From: Candidatus Kaiserbacteria bacterium
GTDB lineage: Bacteria > Patescibacteriota > Minisyncoccia > Phycocordibacterales > UBA2100
Direction: 5' to 3'
Length of the DNA stretch: 36,386 nt
Assembly: GCA_016214605.1 (NCBI GenBank)
Contig: JACROD010000007.1
Location: 1-36,386 of the forward strand
Part shown: positions 7,981-36,186 of the stretch, piece by piece
Numbering within the stretch: position 1 is the stretch's first letter
Layout of the letters: each line of letters begins with the position of its first letter
Position numbers and translations under genes: made by a program
Notes under the pieces: model-generated
Database searches by the model: none
Seen by the model: the letters and a program-made list of their open reading frames with translations, nothing else
What the model was told of the DNA's origin: nothing

Positions 7981-9768
7981 CTACTCCTCCTCCTCTTGGA
8001 TGAATCCCCCCGCCTGAATACTCCAAAGCTTCTGATAGAGACCACCCTCTTTGATGAGCTTATCGTGCGCACCTTGGGCGACTACATGGCCGCCCTGCAG
8101 GACGACGATGCGATCCATGCTCATGATGGTCGAGAGGCGGTGCGCAATCACGAGCACGGTCTTGCCTTGCATGAGGATCTTGAGCGAATCCTGGATGAGC
8201 GACTCGGATTCGGAGTCGAGACTCGACGTGGCTTCGTCGAGCACGAGGATCGGCGCATTTTTGAGGATCGCACGCGCGATCGCTACGCGCTGGCGCTCGC
8301 CGCCCGAGAGCTTGACCCCCCGCTCACCGACAAACGTATCGTACCCTTGGGCGAGTCCCTGGATGAATTCATGACAGTGCGCTTTTTTGGCGGCTTCGAT
8401 CACCTCTTCGTCGGTCGCGTCGCGCTTGCCATAGCGGATGTTTTCCATAAGCGAGCGGTGAAAGAGCACCGGCTCCTGCGGCACGAAACCGATCGAATCA
8501 CGCAAACTATCCTGCGTGACCTGCGCGATGTTTTGGCCGTCGATCAGGATCGCTCCCTCGGTCACGTCGTACATGCGCAAGAGCAGCTTGGTGATGGTCG
8601 ATTTGCCCGCACCCGACGGCCCCACGAGCGCGACCTTCTCGCCGGGACGGATCGAGAGGTCGAGGTGTTCGAGAATTGATCGTTCTTCCTGAAAACGGAA
8701 GGTGATGTCTTTGAAATCGATCGCACCGTTTGATACCGTGAGCGGCGGCGCATTCGGTACATCTTGTATCTGATGCGGCTCTTCAAGGAGCGCGACCATT
8801 TCTTCCGCATCAGCAATGGAATCATAAAAACGCCTAAGTTGAATGGAGACATTGTGAAGCATTTCGAATGTACCAACGAGATACGTCTGGATGAGAATAA
8901 AGTCTCCAATAGTCAGTTCGCCATGCTGCCAAAAATACATCGCACCATATAAAAGCGCGACGTTGATCACGATCATAAGAAACCCCTGTATACCGAGCGC
9001 GTATTCATAGAAATGCCATCCCTTCAGTCGCGCAGCACGCAGATTGTCGGTGAATTGTCCGAGACGTTCGTGTTCGTATCCAACACCAGAAGACAGCATA
9101 ATGGCGTTATGGTTACCTATTGCATCAGCGATCGCACCGCCTAATTTGCTTTCCAACTCCGCACGGGACACACGCAAGGGTCTGTGCATGCGCGAGAGAT
9201 ATACTTGCACTATCACAAAAAGAATCGACCAAAACCCAAGCATGGCACCGAGTACGTGATTATGTGCAAATAAAACCACTATCGCGCCGACAACAAAAAA
9301 AGCGGCCGGAAAGAAACTCATTATTATTGAGTCAAATGCAAGCTCGAAGGCACGTGCGTATTGATTGACTCGACGAGTGAGCGTACCGGCAAATTGCGAT
9401 GCAAAAAAATGATGTGAGTGACGTATGAGATATTCAAACGAAGAGAGCGTGAGATTCGACATGATACGTATCTCCAAAAAGGAAAGACTCCACATTTCAA
9501 TACGGGAAAAGACCCATCTCAACAACATAACGATACCAATGACACCAATCGTGATCGACAAACTATGTACCACCAAAGGACCCCGATCTCCTGAAGCAAG
9601 TGTGTTCAATAATTGCCGCATGTAGATCGGAATAACAAGACTCCCCACCTGTGCACCAATTGCGCCACTGATAATCAAAAATAGGGTGAACGGCTGCCGC
9701 AACACTTCATTGCCATATATACGAAAAACAGAACCAGCGCTCGCCATTTTCTTATGAGTAGGTTCCAT
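7981..9768 (-). CDS. ABC exporter, MsbA/MdlB-like half-transporter
   Basis: A 595-residue fused ABC exporter that would dimerise in the membrane and use ATP to export lipids, drugs or peptides. Residues about 20-320 form the six-helix transmembrane domain. The nucleotide-binding domain (about 345-585) has Walker A GPSGAGKST near 383, the Q-loop phrase FVPQEPVLF, the signature LSGGERQR near 486, Walker B ILVLDEATSSLD and the H-loop VIAHRLST near 540. All catalytic motifs look intact. The ATG at 9766-9768 is preceded on the minus strand by CATAAT and 8 nt, suggesting a leaderless or nearly leaderless mRNA; an internal Met at residue 8 is an alternative start. It is divergent from tsaD, 30 bp away. 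The substrate cannot be told from sequence. Confidence 0.95.
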   Translation of the reverse strand: MEPTHKKMASAGSVFRIYGNEVLRQPFTLFLIISGAIGAQVGSLVIPIYMRQLLNTLASGDRGPLVVHSLSITIGVIGIVMLLRWVFSRIEMWSLSFLEIRIMSNLTLSSFEYLIRHSHHFFASQFAGTLTRRVNQYARAFELAFDSIIMSFFPAAFFVVGAIVVLFAHNHVLGAMLGFWSILFVIVQVYLSRMHRPLRVSRAELESKLGGAIADAIGNHNAIMLSSGVGYEHERLGQFTDNLRAARLKGWHFYEYALGIQGFLMIVINVALLYGAMYFWQHGELTIGDFILIQTYLVGTFEMLHNVSIQLRRFYDSIADAEEMVALLEEPHQIQDVPNAPPLTVSNGAIDFKDITFRFQEERSILEHLDLSIRPGEKVALVGPSGAGKSTITKLLLRMYDVTEGAILIDGQNIAQVTQDSLRDSIGFVPQEPVLFHRSLMENIRYGKRDATDEEVIEAAKKAHCHEFIQGLAQGYDTFVGERGVKLSGGERQRVAIARAILKNAPILVLDEATSSLDSESESLIQDSLKILMQGKTVLVIAHRLSTIMSMDRIVVLQGGHVVAQGAHDKLIKEGGLYQKLWSIQAGGFIQEEEE

Positions 9769-9785
9769 AAGTGGTCATTATGCGC

Positions 9786-9798
9786 TATAAATTGGTAT
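9786..9798 (+). promoter_or_regulatory. -10 box of leaderless tsaD mRNA
   Basis: TATAAA (9786-9791) ends 7 nt before the tsaD ATG at 9799 and there is no Shine-Dalgarno sequence, which fits transcription starting at the start codon. Confidence 0.55.
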
Positions 9799-11022
9799 AT
9801 GAAAATCCTAGGAATCGAGACTTCTTGCGATGAGACGGCAGTGTGTCTGATCAAAGCTTCCGGTACCGGTCCGGAGGATTTTACCTACAAGGTCCTTGGC
9901 AATGCGCTCTATTCGCAGGTCGCCATCCACGCACCATACGGCGGCGTTTTCCCCAATCTCGCCAAACGCGAACACGCCAAAAATCTCGTCCCTCTCCTAA
10001 CACAAGCATTACAGCAAAGTGGACTGCTGTTGGAAGGTCTGACCTTCCAGTACTCTGGAAGGTCAGACCTTCCAACCCTCCTTGTACGAGAACCGGAGCT
10101 TCTGGAACAACTCACGGAATTTCTTGCGCAATACGGCAAACCCGACATCGATGCGATCGCGGTCACGGCAGGGCCCGGGCTTGAGCCGGCACTATGGGTG
10201 GGGGTTAACTTTGCTCGCGCATTGTCGCTCGTGTGGGATATCCCGATCGTCGCCGTCAATCACATGGAAGGGCACGTCATGATGTCGATGGCTCAATGTG
10301 AAGTTGACAGTGAACAGTTGACAGTGGACAGAAGAGAAATCGCGAGCAATCCTTCTGTAAACTGTAAACTGTCAACTGTGGACTTCCCTCTCCTCTCTCT
10401 CCTCATCTCCGGCGGACATACCGAGCTCGTACTATCTACCGAGTGGATGAAGTATCAACGCATCGGCGAGACGCGCGACGATGCAGTGGGCGAAGCCTTC
10501 GACAAGGTCGCGCGCATGCTCGGCCTCCCCTATCCTGGTGGCCCCGAGATATCACGACTCGCCGCATCCGCGCACGCAGAAGGTATCACGGAAGTATTTG
10601 CCCTCCCGCGCCCGATGATCGGCGAAGATAATTATGATTTCTCTTTTTCGGGATTGAAGACCGCAGTCAAGCGCCTCGCCGAAGCGCACCCGGACATGTC
10701 CGATGACGAGAAAAAGGATCTGGCGCGCGAATTCGAAGACGCCGCCGCCGACGTCCTCGTCGCCAAGACCCTGCGTGCCGCAGAAGAATACGGCGCACAG
10801 ACCGTACTCGTCGGCGGCGGTGTCTCCGCCAATACCTACATCCGCCAGCGCCTCGCCGAAGCCACGGCAGGGGCGGGACACATTCAGCTCCTCGTCCCCC
10901 CGCCGGAGCTCGCGACCGACAATGCACTCATGATCGCACTCCCGGGATATTTCCGTGCCCTCAAAAAAGAATTCGCCGATCTCACCACCCTGCGGGCCAA
11001 CGGCAATTTACGGCTTTCATAG
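9799..11022 (+). CDS. tsaD: tRNA N6-threonylcarbamoyladenosine transferase TsaD, with two in-frame palindrome insertions
   Basis: TsaD, with TsaB and TsaE, transfers the threonylcarbamoyl group to A37 of ANN-decoding tRNAs. The 407-residue protein starts MKILGIETSCDETAV and carries the metal-binding HMEGH motif at residues 155-159, the ALLISGGHT-like nucleotide-binding stretch (LLISGGHTEL, near 205) and a C-terminal VGGGVSANTYIR motif. The start is set at 9799 because the TsaD family begins at this Met; an upstream in-frame ATG at 9754 would add unrelated residues and overlap the divergent promoter. Two stretches are foreign to the family: about residues 78-92 (encoded by a 44-bp palindrome) and about 168-196 (encoded by an inverted array of 7-bp repeats). 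Both keep the reading frame and fall in presumed surface loops. No tsaB or tsaE is in the window. The last 60 nt are echoed at 12315-12374. Confidence 0.97.
   Translation: MKILGIETSCDETAVCLIKASGTGPEDFTYKVLGNALYSQVAIHAPYGGVFPNLAKREHAKNLVPLLTQALQQSGLLLEGLTFQYSGRSDLPTLLVREPELLEQLTEFLAQYGKPDIDAIAVTAGPGLEPALWVGVNFARALSLVWDIPIVAVNHMEGHVMMSMAQCEVDSEQLTVDRREIASNPSVNCKLSTVDFPLLSLLISGGHTELVLSTEWMKYQRIGETRDDAVGEAFDKVARMLGLPYPGGPEISRLAASAHAEGITEVFALPRPMIGEDNYDFSFSGLKTAVKRLAEAHPDMSDDEKKDLAREFEDAAADVLVAKTLRAAEEYGAQTVLVGGGVSANTYIRQRLAEATAGAGHIQLLVPPPELATDNALMIALPGYFRALKKEFADLTTLRANGNLRLS
10031..10074. repeat. 44-bp REP/BIME-like palindrome inside tsaD
   Basis: TGGAAGGTCTGACCTTCCAG (10031-10050), a 4-nt spacer TACT and the exact reverse complement (10055-10074). 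Each half is itself a palindrome, GGAAGGTC-T-GACCTTCC and GGAAGGTC-A-GACCTTCC. It is therefore a head-to-head pair, as in BIMEs, and it is translated in frame as part of TsaD. Confidence 0.9.
10301..10385. repeat. Inverted array of 7-bp ACAGTTG-type repeats inside tsaD
   Basis: The left arm (10301-10334) and right arm (10352-10385) are inverted repeats matching at 27 of 34 positions. Each arm is built from heptamers of the form ACAGTNN. The 85-bp element stays in frame within tsaD, between the HMEGH motif and the SGGHT segment. Confidence 0.85.
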
Positions 11023-11136: not shown

Positions 11137-12249
11137 ATGAACATTCTAAAACCAATCTCTACGCTCGCGGTCGTAGGGGCATTATTGGTCGGCAGTGTCG
11201 CATTTGCGGACACTACCCTCAGCTCTGCCCAACAAACATTAATAAGCTGCGTAACATCAACCACTGATGTGAATGCTTTGGCGTCCTGCAGGAACGCCTA
11301 CCTGACGTCGTTGCAGTCCATACAACAAAACACGACTTCAACTATCTCGTCAAATACTTCGGCCTTGCAGTCGTCTATCACGAATGCTGCAACCACGCTT
11401 AAATCGTGCTTACAAAGCGCTGGCAACAACTCTGCCACCATTGAAGCTTGTGTTAACCCCTTCGTTTCCACCGTCACATCAGAGGCCAATTCTTTCGCTT
11501 CCAACTTGACTTCGTCTATTACTATTCCATCCGTAGCCGTAGGCGGCTCCACCTCGCCGGCAGCAGTATCTGCCATCGGACAAGACGCCACTACACTCCA
11601 GACATGTCTTCAAAACGCCATCCAAAGCAGTATAACTAGCGCCGGATCAGGTACGACGCCAAACGTCAATACATCCGCAATAAACACCTGCAGGGACACA
11701 TTTACCACTTCATTGAACCAAAACATCGGCTCGATCGTCAGTGGCGCAACGAGCGGCCTTTCGAATATCTCTGGTACGCCAAACACCAGCGCAATGATGC
11801 AATCAATCCAAAGCCAGATCACAGGCCTCCTCACACAGATCGCGCAGCTTACCAAACAAAACCTACAACAGGGTGACCTTGGCTCATTACTCTCTTCATC
11901 GAACAGTCTCTTGGGAGGTAATTCAGCAGGCAACTCATCGACCAATTCTGCTATGAACTCCGGCACAATGGGGATACTGGGATCCATATTCGACCACAAT
12001 CTCTCATTCGGCTCATCAGGCGACCAAGTGTCCAGACTCCAGTCATGCCTTGCCAAGCTGGATCCTTCCAACTTCTCGATGGACAACATCACCGGATTCT
12101 TCGGTAACATCACACAGCAGGCTCTGCAAAACTGGCAATCGCAAAACAACATCGTCGCAAGCGGAACGCCCGACACTACCGGTTTTGGATTCTTTGGACC
12201 CAAGACCCGCACGGCAATGCAAGGCGCCTGTGGCGAAGGCAACAACTAA
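11137..12249 (+). CDS. Secreted Cys-paired protein with C-terminal peptidoglycan-binding domain
   Basis: The 370-residue protein has a signal peptide (MNILKPISTLAVVGALLVGS, cleavage near AFA-DTT). The mature part is rich in Ser, Thr and Asn. It has three loosely repeated units, each with a Cys pair about 15-35 residues apart (ISC..ASCRNAY, KSC..EACVNPF, QTC..NTCRDTF), which could form disulfides outside the cell. A helical segment LLTQIAQLTKQ leads to a PG_binding_1 domain at about residues 287-366 (GDQVSRLQSCL, GFFGPKTRTAMQ), which itself has a Cys pair. It would attach to the wall; any further function is unknown. It lies between tsaD and a detached diverged copy of the tsaD 3' end, so it may be cargo of an insertion. 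Confidence 0.85.
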   Translation: MNILKPISTLAVVGALLVGSVAFADTTLSSAQQTLISCVTSTTDVNALASCRNAYLTSLQSIQQNTTSTISSNTSALQSSITNAATTLKSCLQSAGNNSATIEACVNPFVSTVTSEANSFASNLTSSITIPSVAVGGSTSPAAVSAIGQDATTLQTCLQNAIQSSITSAGSGTTPNVNTSAINTCRDTFTTSLNQNIGSIVSGATSGLSNISGTPNTSAMMQSIQSQITGLLTQIAQLTKQNLQQGDLGSLLSSSNSLLGGNSAGNSSTNSAMNSGTMGILGSIFDHNLSFGSSGDQVSRLQSCLAKLDPSNFSMDNITGFFGNITQQALQNWQSQNNIVASGTPDTTGFGFFGPKTRTAMQGACGEGNN

Positions 12250-12314: not shown

Positions 12315-12374
12315 AAAAAAGAATTCACCGACGCAGATACACTGCGGGCAAATGGGAATTTGCGGTTGGGATAA
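12315..12374 (+). pseudogene. Detached, diverged copy of the tsaD 3' end
   Basis: In frame from AAA AAA GAA TTC, this stretch encodes KKEFTDADTLRANGNLRLG and a TAA stop; TsaD ends KKEFADLTTLRANGNLRLS. Over the final 54 nt I count 36 matching bases, with most changes silent or conservative. There is no start codon or ribosome site. It is a foreign or displaced tsaD tail placed after the secreted-protein gene. Confidence 0.85.
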
Positions 12375-16138: not shown

Positions 16139-16648
16139 ATGACAAAAAAACCCTCACTACTCTCTCGCATTATGGGGACCGGCAACAACTCCTACGAGGA
16201 CGACAACTACTTCGGCGATCCGGTGCCAGGCGATGCACATTTTGAGGGCACGAGCGAAGAGCGCCATCTACGCACCGATCTGCGCGGCTCCAGTAAACCT
16301 GCTCCCCAAGAAGAGCCTGAGGGAGAACTTTCCGTCGACGTCTACCAGACTCCTGATTCGATCGTGATCAAGACCCTCGTGGCAGGCGTACAACCCGCGA
16401 GCGTCGACGTGTCGCTCACACGCGAGATGATCACCATCTCCGGGACGCGCGTGGATGACCGCGAGGCCGATGAGGAGGACTATTTTTTCCGCGAGCTCTA
16501 CTGGGGCGCTTTCTCTCGCTCGATCATCCTCCCCGAAGAAGTCGACGTCGACGCTGCCGAAGCGAGCGAAAAGCACGGCGTCCTCATGATCCGCCTCCCC
16601 AAGGTCAACAAAAACCGCCAGACCAAGCTCAAGGTCCGGGCGCGATAG
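16139..16648 (+). CDS. Small heat-shock protein, Hsp20/alpha-crystallin family
   Basis: A 169-residue ATP-independent chaperone. The N-terminal 60 residues are polar and probably disordered. The alpha-crystallin domain runs from about residue 61 (LSVDVYQTPDSIVIKTLVAG) to about 165, with the typical ITISGTRV strand, the insert FFRELYWGAFSRSIILPEEV and the closing GVLMIRLPK. The C-terminal extension carries no clear IXI motif. The gene follows the PrsW-like gene by 34 bp. Its last 52 bp are repeated almost exactly at 17791-17842. Confidence 0.95.
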   Translation: MTKKPSLLSRIMGTGNNSYEDDNYFGDPVPGDAHFEGTSEERHLRTDLRGSSKPAPQEEPEGELSVDVYQTPDSIVIKTLVAGVQPASVDVSLTREMITISGTRVDDREADEEDYFFRELYWGAFSRSIILPEEVDVDAAEASEKHGVLMIRLPKVNKNRQTKLKVRAR

Positions 16649-16666
16649 TTTTTTCCAAAAAAGAAA

Positions 16667-16709
16667 CGCCGCACCCAGAAGGAAACGGCATTCCTAAATT
16701 GGTGCGGCG
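16667..16709 (-). terminator. Intrinsic terminator of the secreted 113-residue protein gene
   Basis: On the minus strand CGCCGCACC (16709-16701) pairs with GGTGCGGCG (near 16675-16667), and TTTCTTTTTT follows. The loop holds a smaller AGGAA/TTCCT hairpin. Confidence 0.8.
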
Positions 16710-16723
16710 ATATATGTGTGCGC

Positions 16724-17065
16724 CTATTTTTTGTCTTCGAAAATGGGCGCAAGGAACTCCTTCGGGACAAGTTCTAAGTCGATCTTATGATTTTTCCAAC
16801 CGTCAGATTCTGGAAACTTCTGTTTTGCAAAATCCATTCCAAGTCTTTGTGCTTCTTCCAAGCTATGTGCCCTAGAATAAGCATGTCCATTACCCCAGCA
16901 TGTTGCGGTAACTTTTATATCTCCAAGACTTGGTAATGCAACCTGCGTTTCCCTTTCAGCACTGATATTGCCAACATAGAGACTAAGTGGACCTTCTTTT
17001 GCCTGCGATGTGCTGACAAACGTACACACAAACAGTACGGAGAGGATGATTGCACGAATTCTCAT
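16724..17065 (-). CDS. Small secreted protein, unknown function
   Basis: A 113-residue protein with a clear signal peptide (MRIRAIILSVLFVCTFVSTS, cleavage near SQA-KEG). The mature domain of about 90 residues has one Cys and an Ala/Glu-rich helix (RAHSLEEAQRLGMDFAKQKF). I do not recognise the family. It has its own promoter (TTGACA at 17120-17125) and a strong terminator, and lies between hsp20 and a detached copy of the uvrD-like 3' end. The ribosome site is modest (AGGATTAGG before the ATG at 17063-17065). Confidence 0.75.
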   Translation of the reverse strand: MRIRAIILSVLFVCTFVSTSQAKEGPLSLYVGNISAERETQVALPSLGDIKVTATCWGNGHAYSRAHSLEEAQRLGMDFAKQKFPESDGWKNHKIDLELVPKEFLAPIFEDKK

Positions 17066-17097
17066 TGACCTAATCCTCGGCTGATTAACTAAATATA

Positions 17098-17125
17098 TTG
17101 ATACGCGATTTTATATAAATGTCAA
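17098..17125 (-). promoter_or_regulatory. Promoter of the secreted 113-residue protein gene
   Basis: On the minus strand TTGACA (17125-17120), 16 bp, then TATCAA (17103-17098), beginning only 8 bp after the end of the uvrD-like tail copy. Confidence 0.65.
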
Positions 17126-17133
17126 TACCTTCT

Positions 17134-17208
17134 CTAGGAAGTTCGACTTCGGTCATTGTTTGAGTCCATCAGCCCTCGCAAAGCACAATACTCGCAATCT
17201 TTCGTCAT
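17134..17208 (-). pseudogene. Detached copy of the uvrD-like 3' end, possibly a micro-ORF
   Basis: On the minus strand this encodes MTKDCEYCALRGLMDSNNDR and a few more residues. The helicase-nuclease ends TEDCEYCTLRGLMI, so ten of the eleven residues from DCEYC to GLM match, with several silent base changes. The copy begins at an ATG (17206-17208) with GGAG eight bases upstream, so it could be translated as a 24-residue peptide. The alternative is simply a displaced gene end. The homologous part is about 17167-17205. Confidence 0.75.
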
Positions 17209-17246
17209 GACTGACACTCCTTCATCTGATCTTAAGGGTCTTTGCA

Positions 17247-17252
17247 TATACT
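17247..17252 (+). promoter_or_regulatory. Probable -10 box for the 93-residue gene
   Basis: TATACT at 17247-17252, preceded by TGCA, without a convincing -35 box. Confidence 0.35.
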
Positions 17253-17261
17253 GGTAACAGT

Positions 17262-17666
17262 GGAGAGGGTTCTGCTCAGTCAGCATAGCAACAAAACAAA
17301 CAGAGGAAACAAGACCATGATCACTAGTGAGAATCTCAACAAGACCGGCGCTCTTCAAGTAGCGGGATGCCAAGACTTGGCGCTTGCTCTCAGTGGCGAA
17401 GAAGGCAGGTTCGTTGTCACCACGCCCGACGGCACTACTTTGATCGCCGATGTGGCGGCCGGCCATTCTATCACCGGCCTCCGTATCCTTCCGAAGATGC
17501 CGTCCCTGACAACCTTCAGCTTCGTCAAGGTTGGCGAGATGCAAAAAGAAGCTTACGAGATATCCGGGCAACCCGGATCAGAATCCGAGCAGAGTTAGAG
17601 AAGCTCCCAGAAATAGACTTTCGTACGTATTCTGAACGAGCAGCAATCTGACACAGAACCCTCTCC
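17262..17666. repeat. 13-bp inverted repeats flanking the 93-residue gene
   Basis: GGAGAGGGTTCTG (17262-17274) and its exact reverse complement (17654-17666) lie in the 5' and 3' untranslated regions of the same gene. They could be ends of a mobile cassette, or let the mRNA ends pair. Confidence 0.7.
17317..17598 (+). CDS. Small cytoplasmic protein of unknown function, 93 aa
   Basis: A small soluble protein without a signal peptide, with a beta-rich central part (GRFVVTTPDGTTLIADVAAG) and a polar C-terminal tail. I do not recognise the family. The start at 17317 is chosen because AGAGGAAAC lies about ten bases upstream; an in-frame ATG at 17242 would start before the likely -10 box. It has its own terminator (17705-17738) and is enclosed by 13-bp inverted repeats. 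It lies between the detached uvrD-like tail and the detached hsp20 tail, so it is probably imported cargo. Confidence 0.65.
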   Translation: MITSENLNKTGALQVAGCQDLALALSGEEGRFVVTTPDGTTLIADVAAGHSITGLRILPKMPSLTTFSFVKVGEMQKEAYEISGQPGSESEQS

Positions 17667-17704
17667 AACTACAAAGTTCTGTAGCGCTTATACGTGCGAC
17701 CACT

Positions 17705-17738
17705 CGAGCCATGTCATATCACACATGGCTCGTTTTTT
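17705..17738 (+). terminator. Strong intrinsic terminator of the 93-residue gene
   Basis: CGAGCCATGT (17705-17714) pairs with ACATGGCTCG (17723-17732), followed by TTTTTT. Confidence 0.9.
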
Positions 17739-17761
17739 GCGGTGATGCGGACATCGGGTAT

Positions 17762-17790
17762 AAATGTAGGACATCCGATGTCCTACATTT
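17762..17790. repeat. 29-bp palindrome abutting the hsp20 tail copy
   Basis: AAATGTAGGACAT (17762-17774), loop CCG, and the exact reverse complement (17778-17790). The last base is immediately followed by the first base of the hsp20 tail copy. Confidence 0.85.
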
Positions 17791-17842
17791 CCCCAAGGTC
17801 AACAAAAACCGCCAGACCAAACTCAAGGTCCGAGCGCGATAG
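17791..17842 (+). pseudogene. Detached near-identical copy of the hsp20 3' end
   Basis: These 52 bp match hsp20 16597-16648 at 50 positions and encode PKVNKNRQTKLKVRAR and the TAG stop. The two differences (AAG to AAA, CGG to CGA) are both silent. Homology begins exactly at the palindrome edge and ends at the stop codon. Confidence 0.95.
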
Positions 17843-18100: not shown

Positions 18101-18129
18101 ACTATATCATCAGCCCCCGAAGGGTACAA
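18101..18129 (-). promoter_or_regulatory. Promoter embedded in the 3' end of the uvrD-like gene
   Basis: On the minus strand TTGTAC (18129-18124), 17 bp, then TATAGT (18106-18101). The -35 box lies in codons for the CEYCTL stretch, and the -10 box overlaps the TAG stop codon of the helicase gene. Confidence 0.55.
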
Positions 18130-21098
18130 TATTCGCAATCCTCCGTGTCGCACTTTTTGTCCCAAAAGGCGAGGGTGTAGATCTCCCCTGCCACGCGCTC
18201 GATCGTCTCCTTCAATGCTTTGACCATATCCGCATCGTAGAGGAATGTATGTACGGCGGTGTTGCCTTTCGCGTCCGGCTCGATGAATTCGAGCGTGAGC
18301 CGCGCGGGCCGCTCCATCTGGCCGAGCTCCAGCAAGATACAATAAAAGTCGAGCTGGCGCTTGTAATCCCCCGTCGCATTCTTGGTGCCGCCTTCGAGTT
18401 CGTTGCGGGATTTGTGTTTGCCGGTCTTGTAGTCGATCACGTGCACCGAGCCGTCGATGTTGAATTCGATCACATCGATCAGACCGCGGAGCAAAACCTG
18501 TACTGGCGCACCACCCGAAAGAGGCATATATACCTCGAATTTCTTTTCACAGAGGACGCGGAATTGATAATCTGCCTTGTTGCGCTCGTACCAATCCGTG
18601 AGCGCACGTGTACCCTTTTTCTGCGCGTCGGCATACGAGGTCGGAGTGAAGCCTTGTTGGTCGATCGACACTTGCAGGTATTCGAGTAGGAGTGAGAGCG
18701 GCTGATACTGCTGCGACGAAGCGCACATATCGCGAAAGAGTCGGAGCGCATTGTGCAGGGCATTGCCATAGAGCGAGCTTGGCGTCGGCTTCTCGGGGAT
18801 ACGTACGAGATTGCGGTAAAAGTACTTCCACGGACAATCAAGGTAATTATTGAGCGCGGTCGCCGAGAGTCCCTGCTCCACAAATGCATCTATTAGAAAT
18901 TGTTGATCGCTCAATGAATGCTCCGCGGCGGGCTTCATGGCAAACATGGCCTCGGGTGCGACCGTCGCCTCAAAAGCACCCGTGTCGACTCGTGCGATCA
19001 GCGCAGGATCGATCTCCATCATGAATTGCGCGATGGTGCTCTCCTTGGATCGCGCACTCGAGGTGACGCCGTATGAGACAGATACATAAAGCTTGGCACG
19101 CGTGAGCGCTACATAGAATAGGCGGCGTTCGTCTTCGGTATCGGTGTCGGGTACCGCGGCCAGTGTCGAAAGCGGGAGTGTGTTGCGCGACGTGCGATTG
19201 CCCCATTTGCCATCGCGTGCGTGGATGATATAGACATATTCGTATTCGAGGCCCTTGCTGCGATGCGCGGTCACAAGATGTACGGCGTTGGTGCGCTCTT
19301 TGGGCTGGGTGTCGGGCTCGATCTCGATACCATACTCCTCATAGAGCCCGAGATCGCGGACAAAATCACGACCGGTGTAGAGCGCCTGTGTAGAGCTCAG
19401 GGTCTCGAGCGTATTGGCCAATCCGCGTATGGCATTGAGGATCGTGATCGAATCCGGCCGTGAGAGGACATGTGTGAGTAAGCCACTCTCGTGAAGTACA
19501 TGATCGAAAAAGTCGCGGGCGGATTCTTCCTGGGCGATCTTGGCGAGCCTCTGAACAGTCTGCGCGACCTCGTGCGCTTTTTCTGCATGGTAGACCTTCG
19601 CTTCTTTGAGGTGATCCTTGGAAGAGATTACTTCGAGATACGGCAAGCGCTTCTTTTGGGCATAGATCAAGACCTTGTACGTGTCGCGCGCGTCGATCCC
19701 CACCCAAGAGAAATGCAATACATGTGCCAACAGCTCGTCGCTGCCGATATGCGTACACAGACGCAGGTACGTGACCAGCTGCATGATCGCATGATTGGTA
19801 AAGATGTTGCTTTTGGAATCAAGGGTGTGGAGGATACCAAGGTGTGAGAGTGCGCGCGAGATCGGGAGCGCGTCGGCATTGGTGCGATAGATGATCGCGA
19901 TATCGCCAGGACTCACACCTTCAGATATTCGCTCCTGAATATTTTGTGCGACCCACGCGATCTCCATTTCTTCGCTCGTGAAGGTGCGTTCTTCGAGCAC
20001 CGCGAGATGCGGCTCGGCGAGCTTGCTCAAGAGCCACGGATGGCGCTCTGCAGGTATGGATTCTCGCATGAGCGAATGCGCCGCATCGAGCAGTACTGAC
20101 CCCGAGCGATATGAATCGACGAGCGGGATGAGCTTGGCCGTGGGAAACTTCTCGTGAAAATACGCGAAACTATCGAGCGACGCGCCCTGAAACCGAAAGA
20201 TCGCCTGCTTCTCGTCGCCAACGATAAAAAGATTGGGCGATGGATCATATGAAGTGAGCAATTCGAGCAGTGTATTCTGTGCACCATTGGCGTCTTGGTG
20301 TTCGTCCGCGAGAATGTAGAGATACTTTTCCTGCACGACGAGCAAAAATTCGCTGTCGGTCTGTAGTGCACGCACGACCTCGCCGATCATGTCCTCAAAG
20401 TCGAATTTCTTTTTCTCGGTGAGCTTTGCTTCGTACCACTCAAATACCAGACCAAGCTCGCGCTCTTTTTTGAGCCGATCGATCTGCGTCTGCACGGCGC
20501 CTTTCATCTTGCCTTTGTGCGCGCCTTTTTCATGGAATGACTCAGGGTCTTTTTCCAGTTTCTCGATAAGCTCTTGGGTCTTCGCGAGCACTTCGGCCGG
20601 GACCTTGTGCTCGCGCTTGAGCGTACTGATCGCAGAGCGCGCGGTCTGCACATAAAAATACGGATCGCCAAAAGGCTTGAGCTTCTCGAGCGGGAGCGAC
20701 TCGATCGCTTCGCGGATATAGATGATCGATTCGATGTCGGTGAGGGCCTTGGAGCTGATGATGCGGGGAAAATATTCCGGATGCGAATGAATGATGTCAT
20801 TGCAAAATCCATGAAAGGTGTAGATCTTGACCTTGTATGCGGTGGGGCCAATGAGCTTGAGGAGGCGCTGCTTCATGGCGTCGACCCCCGCCTCGGTAAA
20901 GGTGAGTGCCAGGATCCCATCGGGAGGCGTATCGGTCTGCGTGAGGATATTGGCGATGCGTAGGGCGAGGATATGGGTCTTGCCGGTGCCGGGGCCTGCC
21001 ACCACCATCACCGGGCCGTTTATTGCGTCTACGGCCTGTTTTTGGGCATTATTGAGGCCTTTGTAGGCCGTATTGAAGATCGGATGCACCTTGGTCAT
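18102..21098 (-). CDS. UvrD/Rep-type helicase fused to an Fe-S PD-(D/E)XK nuclease (AddB/Cas4-like)
   Basis: A 998-residue superfamily 1A helicase, probably acting on double-strand breaks in the manner of AddAB/RecBCD. Walker A VAGPGTGKT is at about residues 33-41, followed by GILALTFTEAG (motif Ia region). Walker B reads ILADEHQDA near 264, where most relatives have DEFQD. Later motifs include FVVGDEKQAIFRFQGA-like FIVGDEKQAIFRFQG, VHLVTAHRSKGLEY and RLFYVALTRAK. The C-terminal nuclease domain has C755 in DCPWKYFYRNL, the catalytic core VIDYKTGK near 888, and the closing Cys triad in KKCDTEDCEYC near 980-989; these four Cys would hold a 4Fe-4S cluster. I chose the Met at 21098 because TACAAT with an upstream TGC lies 7 nt before it, giving a leaderless mRNA; in-frame upstream Met codons add non-conserved residues. 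Confidence 0.93.
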   Translation of the reverse strand: MTKVHPIFNTAYKGLNNAQKQAVDAINGPVMVVAGPGTGKTHILALRIANILTQTDTPPDGILALTFTEAGVDAMKQRLLKLIGPTAYKVKIYTFHGFCNDIIHSHPEYFPRIISSKALTDIESIIYIREAIESLPLEKLKPFGDPYFYVQTARSAISTLKREHKVPAEVLAKTQELIEKLEKDPESFHEKGAHKGKMKGAVQTQIDRLKKERELGLVFEWYEAKLTEKKKFDFEDMIGEVVRALQTDSEFLLVVQEKYLYILADEHQDANGAQNTLLELLTSYDPSPNLFIVGDEKQAIFRFQGASLDSFAYFHEKFPTAKLIPLVDSYRSGSVLLDAAHSLMRESIPAERHPWLLSKLAEPHLAVLEERTFTSEEMEIAWVAQNIQERISEGVSPGDIAIIYRTNADALPISRALSHLGILHTLDSKSNIFTNHAIMQLVTYLRLCTHIGSDELLAHVLHFSWVGIDARDTYKVLIYAQKKRLPYLEVISSKDHLKEAKVYHAEKAHEVAQTVQRLAKIAQEESARDFFDHVLHESGLLTHVLSRPDSITILNAIRGLANTLETLSSTQALYTGRDFVRDLGLYEEYGIEIEPDTQPKERTNAVHLVTAHRSKGLEYEYVYIIHARDGKWGNRTSRNTLPLSTLAAVPDTDTEDERRLFYVALTRAKLYVSVSYGVTSSARSKESTIAQFMMEIDPALIARVDTGAFEATVAPEAMFAMKPAAEHSLSDQQFLIDAFVEQGLSATALNNYLDCPWKYFYRNLVRIPEKPTPSSLYGNALHNALRLFRDMCASSQQYQPLSLLLEYLQVSIDQQGFTPTSYADAQKKGTRALTDWYERNKADYQFRVLCEKKFEVYMPLSGGAPVQVLLRGLIDVIEFNIDGSVHVIDYKTGKHKSRNELEGGTKNATGDYKRQLDFYCILLELGQMERPARLTLEFIEPDAKGNTAVHTFLYDADMVKALKETIERVAGEIYTLAFWDKKCDTEDCEYCTLRGLMI

Positions 21099-21138
21099 GG
21101 GGATGATTGTAGCATTTGTCATCCGGCAACCCGGGTAC

Positions 21139-21166
21139 TTGCAAATATAATTGCATGTGTTAAAAT
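21139..21166 (+). promoter_or_regulatory. Promoter of the 54-residue membrane-protein gene
   Basis: TTGCAA (21139-21144), 16 bp, then TAAAAT (21161-21166), 27 bp before the ATG. Confidence 0.55.
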
Positions 21167-21193
21167 AAACATCGGAAACTCGGAGGACCGACA

Positions 21194-21358
21194 ATGATCG
21201 CCAAAATTGAACGCGAATTCGCCAAGTTCGCGAAAATCCCGGAAGATCAGCAGAACCATCATTTCAGTGACTTTGAACACCGTGTGATAGGCCGGTTGGC
21301 AGGCCTTGCAGCGGCCGCCATCATCCTTTTCGTTATCGGCGACGGGATATTCTCATAA
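21194..21358 (+). CDS. Micro-protein, 54 aa, one C-terminal membrane helix
   Basis: Reads MIAKIEREFAKFAKIPEDQQ, then a charged stretch, then a membrane helix (GLAAAAIILFVIGDGIF) ending at a TAA. GGAGG at 21182-21186 lies seven bases before the ATG. The gene is bracketed by its own promoter and a strong terminator, so it looks real despite its size. It is a tail-anchored-like protein of unknown function, divergent from the helicase-nuclease gene. Confidence 0.75.
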   Translation: MIAKIEREFAKFAKIPEDQQNHHFSDFEHRVIGRLAGLAAAAIILFVIGDGIFS

Positions 21359-29980: not shown

Positions 29981-30103
29981 CTAGTATGATCGCAAGTGCC
30001 TTGCTCTTTCATGGAACCTAATTCTTTCCAAGGCTTTTGCCTCAATTTGTCTAATGCGCTCGCGAGTGACGCCGAATTCGCGACTGACTTCTTCGCGAGA
30101 GGG
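29981..30103 (-). pseudogene. rpoD 3'-end fragment B (intact region 4.2 helix-turn-helix, no start)
   Basis: On the minus strand from 30094 to the TAG at 29981-29983 the frame encodes [37 protein letters not shown], then stop. That is 35 of 37 residues identical to the end of the rpoD gene at 31500, with many silent base differences. Upstream the homology ends near a 23-bp palindrome, and an in-frame stop lies just beyond. There is no start codon, so it is a detached gene end from another rpoD allele. Confidence 0.93.
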
Positions 30104-30126
30104 TGGCGCAAGTCGGACTTACGCCA
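30104..30126. repeat. REP-like palindrome 1 (3' side of transposase gene)
   Basis: TGGCGCAAGTC-G-GACTTACGCCA, one mismatch between arms. It abuts rpoD fragment B and lies 12 bp beyond the transposase stop codon. Confidence 0.9.
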
Positions 30127-30138
30127 TTTACAAGCTCC

Positions 30139-30873
30139 CTACCATTGCTCCAACAGAAGCGAGGAGAAGATGTCGTCATGCGCCTGTATAAAATGCAACA
30201 ATGCTTCTTTTGCTTCACGTTTGAATGCTATCGTTGCGTAAGTCCGACTTGCGCCATTCGATACATTAAGCAACCCAAGATCATTCAAGGCTTCCTCGTC
30301 GACAATGAGGGAATGCTCACCAAGTGCACAAACACGCAAGCTTGAATATTTGTATGACAACGCCCATTCCCATGCACGATCAAAATCTTTAAGAGCAGCC
30401 TTCAGGCCGCCCGGATACAATTCCAATACATTTTTTACGAGAATATAAAAAACGAGGTGTCGCAGATATGTGTCTTGCTCAACCAACTTCCCCTTATACC
30501 CACCTTGAAAGATACTCCCCTGCTCACTGTACTTCGCATTGAAACAAAGTGTCATGCTTCCACCGAGACGTTGCATAAACGTGGCAATTCCGCCTTCGTG
30601 TATTTCTCTGAGCAACAGGTGGAAGTGATTTGGCATTAGCGTCCACGCAAGTATCGATACAAGTGGCCTTCGGTCGGGCCAGTGACCGGGGCGTTCCAAT
30701 GACAACGTCTGTGTATCACGGAGCCAATGATCATCACTATATTCATCATTCAAGAAATAGAGTGACTTCAGAAAACGCTCGCGATCGTTCTCATCGAGCA
30801 CTATTTCTGCACCGCGCGCGCCACGCTTTATGACATGCAGCACAGAATCGACCCCATGTTTCTCGACCCTCAT
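30139..30873 (-). CDS. REP-associated tyrosine transposase (RAYT, Y1/HUH family)
   Basis: A 244-residue Y1 transposase of the kind that mobilises REP palindromes as single-stranded DNA. The HUH metal motif is in WTLMPNHFHLLLRE (H83, H85), and the likely nucleophile Tyr is in HLVFYILVKNVLELYP (Y143). GSIFQGGYKGKL is also typical of the family. The C-terminus (about residues 206-213, GASRTYA) is encoded by one of its own palindromes, in inverse orientation. Two further copies lie upstream of the gene and one downstream. All catalytic residues seem present, so it may be active. The ATG is at 30871-30873; no good Shine-Dalgarno. Confidence 0.9.
   Translation of the reverse strand: MRVEKHGVDSVLHVIKRGARGAEIVLDENDRERFLKSLYFLNDEYSDDHWLRDTQTLSLERPGHWPDRRPLVSILAWTLMPNHFHLLLREIHEGGIATFMQRLGGSMTLCFNAKYSEQGSIFQGGYKGKLVEQDTYLRHLVFYILVKNVLELYPGGLKAALKDFDRAWEWALSYKYSSLRVCALGEHSLIVDEEALNDLGLLNVSNGASRTYATIAFKREAKEALLHFIQAHDDIFSSLLLEQW
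30235..30256. repeat. REP-like palindrome 2, inside the transposase gene, inverted
   Basis: TGCGTAAGTC-C-GACTTGCGCCA, the same family as the copies at 30104, 30890 and 30962 but with the central base complemented (C instead of G), so in the opposite orientation. It is read in frame by the transposase gene. Confidence 0.85.
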
Positions 30874-30889
30874 AATGGTAACCAGTGTA

Positions 30890-30911
30890 TGCGCAAGTCG
30901 GACTTACGCCA
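30890..30911. repeat. REP-like palindrome 3 (5' side of transposase gene)
   Basis: TGCGCAAGTC-G-GACTTACGCCA, 17 bp upstream of the transposase start. Confidence 0.88.
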
Positions 30912-30961
30912 AGTGATTTCTGTGGTATATCGTACATACGTAACAACAAACTGCGTACAAG

Positions 30962-30984
30962 TGGCGTAAGTCGGACTTACGCCA
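30962..30984. repeat. REP-like palindrome 4 (perfect copy)
   Basis: TGGCGTAAGTC-G-GACTTACGCCA, a perfect 11-bp-arm palindrome between the transposase gene and the 152-residue membrane-protein gene. Confidence 0.92.
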
Positions 30985-31020
30985 TTCTTATTTGGGAAAT
31001 GATCTGACGTTGCCTTTCTC

Positions 31021-31479
31021 TTAAGATCCCCGACCCTGCATCAAACCAAATAACCCTGTAATGATGGGAAATATTAGAACAACTAATATCACGGGCATGA
31101 AGCTCTGCTCAAACGTCCACCCAAAACCACGGACAACATCATATATTGATGTGATCAGATCAAGGATTATTCCGAGCAGAACCAGGCCAATACCCATAAC
31201 CCCTCCGAGCATAATTCCGTTCGGGAGATTCGGTCTGACTTCGAGGAAATACCACTTCACAGAGAAGTACCAGGCCCCCATTAAAACAATGAACAAGCTG
31301 GTTAGAACAGCAGTAGTTATTGTTTGAGATACCGATATAACATGCTCACGTGCGAGAAAGTTTAGAACCGGAGTAATTACCCACCCCAAAACGACCCCTA
31401 ATCCGAAGACCATGGCAATAAATGTGATAGCAGATTGAATCGCTCTCTTTATATTAAAAGATGCCATGATTTTCATCAT
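31021..31479 (-). CDS. Four-helix membrane protein downstream of rpoD
   Basis: A protein of about 150 residues with four membrane segments (AITFIAMVFGLGVVLGWVIT, AVLTSLFIVLMGAWYFSV, GVMGIGLVLLGIILDLI, FMPVILVVLIFPIITGLFGL). It resembles DUF-type small integral membrane proteins common in CPR genomes; no function can be named. It begins 20 bp after the rpoD stop codon on the same strand. GAGGTG sits two bases before the first ATG and five before the second (31476), so the second may be the true start. It lies between rpoD and the transposase plus detached rpoD tails. Confidence 0.75.
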   Translation of the reverse strand: MMKIMASFNIKRAIQSAITFIAMVFGLGVVLGWVITPVLNFLAREHVISVSQTITTAVLTSLFIVLMGAWYFSVKWYFLEVRPNLPNGIMLGGVMGIGLVLLGIILDLITSIYDVVRGFGWTFEQSFMPVILVVLIFPIITGLFGLMQGRGS

Positions 31480-31499
31480 AGCACCTCATTTCGTACCTA

Positions 31500-32870
31500 T
31501 TAGTAGCTACGCAAGTGCTTGGCTCTCTCGTGGAAGCGGATGCGCTCGAGGGCTTTGGCTTCGATCTGGCGGATGCGCTCGCGGGTGACGCCGAATTCGC
31601 GGCCAACTTCTTCGAGGGTATAGCACACGCCGTCGTCGGTGAGGCCATTGCGCATTTCGAGGATCTTGCGCTCTTTGGGTGAAAGCTCTTCAAGGATCGT
31701 GATCATCTGCTCGCCGAGGATACGGCGTGAGGCGTCTTGATCTGGGCTCGCGATCGAGTCATCGGCGATGAAGCTACCGAGGGTCGAGCGCTCATCATCG
31801 TCTTCGCCTACTGGCGACTCGAGTGAGACGGTGTCCTGATTGATCTTTTGTATCGTGTAAATCTTGTCGATCTCGATACCCATTTCGGTGGCGATCTCTT
31901 CGGGCAATGGGTCGCGGCCAAGGTGCTGTGAGAGCTCGCGGACCTTCTGCTTGTACTTGGCGATGGTCTCCACCATGTGCACGGGGATGCGGATCGTGCG
32001 GGATTGATCGGCGAGCGCGCGTGTGATCGCCTGACGGATCCACCACGTCGCGTAGGTCGAGAATTTGTAGCCTTTGGTATGGTCGAATTTGTCGACCGCT
32101 TTGAAAAGACCGAGATTGCCCTCTTGGATCAGGTCGAGGAGTGTGAGATCGGGGCTGCGATTCACATACTTTTTGGCGATAGACACCACGAGGCGAAGGT
32201 TGGAGCGGGCGAGGATACTGCGCGCCTCGTCGTCGCCGGCGATAATCCGCTTGGCGAGGTCTTTCTCCTGTTCGCCATTCAAGAGCGGGTACTGACCGAT
32301 CTCGCGCAGATACATCTGCACGGAGTCGAAGCCTGCGTCGACACGTCGATGTTGGAGCTTCTTGCGTTCGAGGATCTCGTCGATCTTCACGTCTTCGAGC
32401 ATGCCACCACCTTCGAGCACGTCGATGCCGGCGGTGCTGAAGGTGTCGTACATGTCTTCGAGGAGCGAGACATTTTCCTCGATCGTCGGGAATTCGCGGA
32501 GGATCTCATCGTAGGTGATGTAACCGCGCTCGCGACCGAGGCGGGTCAGTACGTCTACCTTGTGCTGTTGTTTGTGCGCGAGCGATCCGGCCTTTGCGGC
32601 AGGGCCCTTCTTGGCATGCATATCGCGCAATGGGCGCGGGCCGGTCTTGGTGGCTACAGGTATCGGCTTATGAGGTCGACGTGAAGCGCGCGCAGTCGCG
32701 GAGGTGCGCTTGCGTGCGGCAGCGGCGGTGCGACGCGAAATAGCCTCGATCGTGCGCTTGGCCGCGGTCGCCTTCTTGTCTGCCGTGTGGGCAGATTTCT
32801 TCGCGTGGACCTTCTTGGTCTTCGCGGTCTTCACGCTCTTTTTGGTTTTTTTAGGAGTTGATTTGGCCAT
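31500..32870 (-). CDS. rpoD: Primary RNA polymerase sigma factor RpoD/SigA
   Basis: A 456-residue group 1 sigma-70 factor. Residues 1-95 are a Lys/Ala/Arg-rich tail ([14 protein letters not shown]) of the sort often seen on CPR DNA-binding proteins. Region 1.1 follows ([17 protein letters not shown]). Region 1.2 begins [16 protein letters not shown], region 2 carries [13 protein letters not shown] and the -10 recognition helix ([20 protein letters not shown]), region 3 is next, and region 4 closes with [20 protein letters not shown] for -35 recognition. It follows dnaG by 153 bp in the classical dnaG-rpoD order. Two detached copies of its 3' end lie at 29904-30103. Confidence 0.97.
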
Positions 32871-35343: not shown

Positions 35344-35451
35344 TTAGGCCTTCATCTGTTCGACTTCGGCTTCCTCCGCTACTCCCTTTCTACTTTGGAG
35401 CCCCATCGACGCAAACCCACTAACCTCCCCAATCCCAACCAAGTTTATAAC
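35344..35451 (-). pseudogene. Orphan coding tail abutting a palindrome
   Basis: On the minus strand the open frame reads VINLVGIGEVSGFASMGLQS, RKGVAEEAEVEQMKA, then TAA, with an in-frame stop just upstream inside the palindrome at 35441-35474. It looks like the 3' end of a gene without its body, by analogy with the other detached tails here. No matching gene is in the window. A 20-residue peptide from the internal ATG is an alternative. Confidence 0.4.
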
Positions 35452-35474
35452 TTACGACCGTGAGTTATAAACTT
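35441..35474. repeat. 34-bp palindromic repeat, copy 1 (downstream of PaaX-like gene)
   Basis: AAGTTTATAACT (35441-35452), a 10-nt core TACGACCGTG, and AGTTATAAACTT (35463-35474). An inverted copy lies at 36153-36186. Confidence 0.9.
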
Positions 35475-35526
35475 GCCTCAATTCACATTATTGTATTATT
35501 GTAGTTAGATCTCATCCACACATAAC

Positions 35527-36117: not shown

Positions 36118-36152
36118 ATACCGATATGGTACCAGACATACGTTTTGAGAGT

Positions 36153-36186
36153 AAGTTTATATCTCACGGTCGTATGTTATAAACTT
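36153..36186. repeat. 34-bp palindromic repeat, copy 2 (upstream of PaaX-like gene, inverted)
   Basis: The reverse complement of this stretch matches copy 1 at 32 of 34 positions. It lies 36 bp before the PaaX-like start, in the promoter region, so it could be an operator. Confidence 0.9.

Follow-up and report, generated by a model that had tools for sequence, protein, structure and literature searches.

An intact gene followed by an insert and a displaced copy of its own tail is the classic product of integrase elements that act at gene 3' ends. Palindromes located behind genes bring a second system, REP/RAYT (REPtron), into consideration. REPs are known behind and inside genes (PMC3733652), perfect-palindrome REPs have been described (PMC8266576), and REPtrons are said not to transpose as units (PMC6006769). 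As for foreign DNA, Patescibacteria have been reported to be naturally competent (PMC12455944), and one-sided homologous integration is known (PMC3240628). Here we analysed a window of 36,386 nucleotides from a Candidatus Kaiserbacteria genome (contig JACROD010000007.1, positions 1 to 36,386), in which a copied hsp20 tail adjoins a palindrome.

Results

Structure of the hsp20 locus

The locus between hsp20 and a convergent helicase gene contains the following features.

16139..16648, + strand: hsp20 small heat-shock gene, intact, 169 aa (ORF; orthologs in 47 of the 52 genus genomes)
16596..16648, + strand: hsp20 3' tail, copy 1, within the intact gene (direct repeat D1)
16724..17065, - strand: ORF of 113 aa within the insert; its N-terminus resembles a signal peptide; no Pfam match
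17167..17205, - strand: tail copy of the downstream UvrD/PD-(D/E)XK helicase, covering the end that encodes the C-terminus (repeat D2, 79% to 18108-18146)
17320..17598, + strand: ORF of 92 aa in the inserted segment (118 aa if from the upstream TTG at 17242); no Pfam match
17705..17732, + strand: intrinsic terminator-like hairpin, then T6
17762..17790, no strand: REP-like palindrome, 29 bp, 14-bp arms (same core in 5 of the 52 genus genomes)
17790..17842, + strand: hsp20 3' tail, copy 2, adjoining the palindrome and ending at TAG (direct repeat)
18102..21194, - strand: UvrD-like helicase with PD-(D/E)XK nuclease (Pfam), convergent with hsp20

The final 53 bp of hsp20 (16596-16648) recur at 17790-17842 with 51 of the 53 positions identical and both differences silent, and on both sides the identity ends at TAG. 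This is the strongest direct repeat in the window (blastn E 5e-18), and the only 25-mers occurring twice on the + strand lie within it. A sequence-only reading had reported 50 of 52 identical positions over 17791-17842, silent differences and an end at the stop codon, all of which were confirmed; the start can be placed at 17790 or 17791, as one T is common to the palindrome end and the copy. Its palindrome length of 29 bp was likewise correct, and its 13-bp arms had to be extended to 14 bp. Judged by eye, possible microhomology at the joint amounts to 1 bp here and to 3-4 bp at hsp20 of the relative G028. The helicase-tail copy at 17167-17205, which the same reading had passed over, differs from the helicase by 5 synonymous and 3 nonsynonymous changes.

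An Rfam search gave no match, and no tRNA genes were found in the window; tRNA-anchored integration was rejected on the latter ground. The palindrome at 17762-17790 was also dismissed as a terminator, because no T-run stands behind it and a separate terminator lies at 17705-17732. A long target-site duplication by a RAYT was discarded as well, since the first tail is followed by neither a palindrome nor a shared end and the copies stop at stop codons.

The palindrome and its transposase

The palindrome reads AAATGTAGGACATC-C-GATGTCCTACATTT, with one central base and 28 of its 29 positions self-complementary. The genome that carries the window has two copies of the 23-bp core, TGTAGGACATC-S-GATGTCCTACA (contigs C6 and C15). 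Among 84,980 species genomes, exact matches of the core were found only in Kaiserbacteria-titled records and one uncultured bin. When up to 2 mismatches were allowed, 5 of the 52 genus genomes contained the core; it was intact in 4 of them at 2-10 copies each, from the two copies of the present genome up to the ten of G025. In the variants of G025 both arms are altered, and the palindrome is thereby kept. A GTAG foot is present (TGTAGG...CCTACA), on both strands since the palindrome is perfect.

In G028 and G047, palindromes stand on both sides of a Y1 HUH transposase gene. The two transposases are 74% identical and carry an HYH motif; PF01797 scored above its cut-off in G028 and just below it in G047. 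Furthermore, a 69% homolog in G025 adjoins the variant palindromes, and at most of 60 sampled transposase loci the gene has its own palindromes, about 21-49 bp long, on its flanks. The palindrome with its flanked Y1 transposase is a REP/RAYT (TnpA-REP) arrangement; because the copy number is low, we file the palindrome as REP-like and not as a typical REP family. The copy at 17.8 kb of the window is an orphan, with no Y1 transposase gene beside it, and the genome has no close homolog of the G028/G047 RAYT (best E 7e-25 vs 6e-118 in G047).

Copies of the TGTAGG palindrome also lie within open reading frames, several of them of housekeeping genes, namely pheT, leuS, argS and a carbamoyl-phosphate synthase gene. 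In pheT the palindrome lies within the reading frame in three genomes (L102 955-977, L111 4003-4025 and L120 4087-4109). Its position is similar in the present genome and G028, between the CLM and FDX-ACB domains, and is near the N-terminus in G047.

The hsp20/helicase locus in relatives

Among 41 genomes mapped, the helicase was found near hsp20 only in the present genome, G028 and G047, all of which carry the palindrome. The order in G028 is hsp20, helicase-tail copy, palindrome, gene, palindrome, RAYT, palindrome, hsp20-tail copy, 27 bp and helicase. That in G047 is hsp20, another gene, helicase-tail copy, palindrome, RAYT, palindrome, a second helicase-tail copy, gene and helicase. These gene orders indicate that one palindrome family repeatedly abuts truncated tails at one convergent gene pair. 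The truncation points of hsp20 differ between the present genome and G028.

Two further observations concern G047. The RAYT reading frame continues through the palindrome into the helicase-tail copy (L063 1913-2665), and on contig C47 (L118 3335-4272) a Maf-like gene separates an RND transporter gene from a copy of its tail that stands directly against a TGTAGG palindrome.

Tail copies across genomes

We counted a tail copy when it lay downstream of the gene, on the same strand and outside called genes. The sampled part of the present genome (520 kb, 509 genes) gave 8 tail copies, one of them a tRNA artefact, and 2 head copies upstream of genes; the artefact, at C25 7169-7561, resembles tRNA sequence and was dropped. 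The G028 sample (391 genes) gave 8 tail copies, some of the hits being reciprocal, and 0 head copies; together the two samples contain about 15 tail copies. A further 78 genus loci, picked for hsp20 or RAYT genes and not at random, gave 7 tail copies vs 0 head copies. Tail copies are thus polar, lying behind genes and not ahead of them. None was found for 270 genes in 300 kb of E. coli K-12 or for 203 genes in 200 kb of G026. Inserts measure about 0.03-2.3 kb, and the targets are many unrelated genes. Identity usually ends at the stop codon, and some copies in G028 run on unchanged past it. The anchor is on one side only: tail homology lies at the gene, and the other side meets unrelated DNA or a palindrome.

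At G043:C44 (L172 2675-6083), one surface-protein-like gene has several tail copies, with a RAYT and a pair of small genes, toxin-antitoxin-like by eye, between them.

In the present genome 3 of the 8 tail copies abut a palindrome, and these palindromes belong to three different families (p 0.0005 vs random positions; p 0.004 vs positions behind stops). In G028 a palindrome was found at 1 of 7 tail copies, which is not significant. Added cases are the hsp20 and helicase copies of G028, the helicase and RND transporter copies of G047 and a RAYT copy in G014; since they were reached via palindromes or RAYT genes, they do not test the association independently. The earlier suggestion of a recombination or insertion point marked by the palindrome holds in part. 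In G028 and G047, palindromes of the TGTAGG family stand directly against copies of the hsp20, helicase and RND-transporter tails, and sigma-70, a gene on C24 and a RAYT have tail copies that meet palindromes of other REP families. About 23 of 28 copies of the TGTAGG palindrome, however, abut no tail copy, and a palindrome is absent from many tail copies, so it does not act as the insertion signal everywhere. Among unselected cases, the joint is a REP palindrome in a minority, where it may play a causal part.

Other tail copies and palindromes in the window

9754..11022, + strand: tsaD, intact, tail also copied
12318..12374, + strand: tsaD tail copy, adjoining the conserved neighbour valS
29984..30095, - strand: sigma-70 (rpoD) tail copy, 75.7% nt and 94.6% aa identity to the gene at 31500-32870
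30103..30128, no strand: second REP palindrome, unrelated, TGGCGYAAGTC-G-GACTTACGCCA, abutting the sigma-70 tail copy
30139..30873, - strand: Y1 HUH transposase gene, RAYT-like, between second-family palindromes (PF01797 above cut-off; HFH motif)

The tsaD copy had been recognised before and is indeed present, with 70.6% nucleotide identity to the tsaD tail. An ORF at 11137-12249 lies between tsaD and the copy. As valS is the downstream neighbour of tsaD in 27 of the 29 relatives examined, and the insert and tail copy stand between the two here, the insert has split a conserved pair.

The sigma-70 tail copy is new relative to the earlier reading. Its GC content is 48% vs 61% in the gene, and it is nearest to another genus member. 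Further palindromes of the second family lie near 30235, 30893 and 30961. In the interval 29984-31614 the copy abuts the RAYT with four second-family palindromes around it.

Inside tsaD, a 48-bp double palindrome (TTGGAAGGTCTGACCTTCCA...) lies in frame at 10029-10076, and a second, imperfect inverted repeat at 10300-10386. The former belongs to a family whose palindromes also surround a Y1 transposase gene at G000:C27 (L152); another member adjoins the C24 tail copy (L233). A 42-bp inverted repeat, one arm of which is itself palindromic, occupies 35440-35481 and 36145-36186. The 24.6/28.2-kb repeat was left uncounted as a tail copy; it lies in ORFs next to a gene for a Complex I subunit and appears to reflect paralogy.

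Divergence of the copies

Pooled over 17 tail pairs, differences were found at 164 of 303 synonymous and 91 of 1041 nonsynonymous sites (pN/pS 0.16). The pattern of purifying selection (pN/pS < 0.25) was observed in 16 of the 17 pairs, the exception being one pair of the present genome (C25, pN/pS 2.4). The RND transporter pair, with 91.5% nucleotide identity, has 14 synonymous differences and 1 nonsynonymous difference (p 7e-8); p was 1e-7 for rpoD, 2e-9 for rpoD of G038 and 3e-6 for the C31 gene. Detection by tblastn is biased toward conserved copies; despite this bias, RND-type pairs would remain detectable with many more replacements. Most pairs show the divergence pattern of two functional lineages: their mainly synonymous differences indicate that the copies mostly diverged inside working genes of different lineages and are not decaying local duplicates. 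The prevalence of synonymous changes, together with a shift in GC content, in several pairs would fit inserts derived from another strain; no donor genome was identified.

For the hsp20 pair alone, the test against neutrality gave p 0.06 from two differences only; two silent changes are no proof of divergence in separate working genes, and a foreign origin would be argued by analogy. The hsp20 pairs of the present genome and of G028 are each about 95-96% identical, and the two copies cluster by genome. This clustering bears on the earlier proposal that the copies are recent or homogenised: the copies of the two genomes are not unchanged descendants of one ancestral duplication. A duplication common to both genomes, which would need gene conversion, was accordingly rejected.

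Discussion

On a slight balance of probability, the 1.2-kb block that separates the two hsp20 tails is the footprint of imported DNA that recombined in a conserved gene 3' end. Donor DNA from a related lineage, presumably imported from outside the cell, would have carried an hsp20 3' end, a convergent helicase 3' end and small cassette genes. Recombination, the presumed joining step, would have engaged resident hsp20 via the conserved 3' coding end, and a REP palindrome belonging to a RAYT (TnpA-REP) element, at the opposite edge of the donor DNA, would have been joined non-homologously into the tail. The outcome would be an intact hsp20 and a second tail behind the palindrome. The hairpin or the RAYT may have been active in this process, for example as a cleaved or fragile end. 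An insertion behind the stop leaves promoter and gene intact, so that the polarity is explicable by selection. That the genome has only two palindromes and no close cognate RAYT fits arrival of the palindrome with imported DNA; loss of the RAYT is equally compatible. One difficulty for import from a close donor is that the coding copies are 96% identical, yet beyond the stop codon they have nothing in common.

The hsp20 pair of the present genome, with its two differences, and the clustering of the hsp20 copies by genome would also fit a recent local duplication, in which slippage or RAYT activity copied the neighbouring tail in the same genome and drift followed, and the G028 copies that extend unchanged past the stop point the same way. 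We regard this as rather unlikely, because the differences in most pairs are mainly synonymous, an unexpected outcome for a drifting non-functional fragment, the GC content of the rpoD copy is unlike that of its gene, and identity usually ends at the stop codon. It is doubtful, too, that two processes merely coincided, the tails deriving from ordinary gene transfer and REPs being inserted later at or near the joints as neutral DNA. The palindrome at only 1 of 7 unselected G028 copies, the many TGTAGG copies that abut no tail and the preference of REPs for sites downstream of genes, also inside genes (PMC3733652), are in line with such a coincidence; however, several palindrome families lie within 0-10 bp of truncated ends in the present genome, G028, G047 and G014, and exact insertion at a pre-existing joint would need repeating.

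Tails representing attL and attR of an integrase-type element that enters gene 3' ends and restores the frame would be very unlikely: despite the matching layout, no recombinase was recognised among the hsp20-insert ORFs, and the small inserts, the many unrelated genes, the variable hsp20 truncation and the lack of a fixed attachment core speak against it. Misassembly is extremely improbable. Repeats can mislead assemblers, but related, non-identical structures appear in three independent assemblies, and the copies differ in sequence.

Within the import reading, a more specific and unlikely version is that RAYT/REP hairpins supply the non-homologous end: single-stranded segments from a REP to a gene 3' end, possibly circular, would be captured and, in another cell, would recombine homologously into the same gene. 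If so, REPtrons would have a means of spreading, and cassettes in Patescibacteria would have their sites at convergent gene pairs and at gene ends. Under the import reading in general, displaced tails would record the import of DNA by uncultured Patescibacteria in the form of readable scars, countable in any genome and told from decay products by their polarity and silent divergence, and the tails at REP palindromes bear on the question of how REPtrons move between genomes.

Comparison with known systems

The locus shares with integrative elements that restore gene 3' ends the intact gene, the insert and the displaced tail, and differs from them in its many unrelated targets, its variable truncation points and the absence of any integrase found. 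It resembles REP/RAYT in the short perfect palindrome with a GTAG foot, the cognate palindromes around a Y1 HUH transposase gene, the copies behind and inside genes, and the joint variation of transposase and palindrome. In contrast, there are 2-10 copies per genome, not the hundreds of a high-copy family, and copies of gene tails abut the palindrome; our search of the RAYT literature found no description of gene tails abutting REP palindromes. Homology-facilitated illegitimate recombination, or insertion-duplication in natural transformation, likewise combines one homologous anchor with one non-homologous joint, doubles the homologous stretch and adds foreign DNA, as is proposed for the present inserts. 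Here, however, the process is deduced from genomes only, a subset of the joints lies at a REP palindrome, and gene 3' ends are strongly preferred as anchors.
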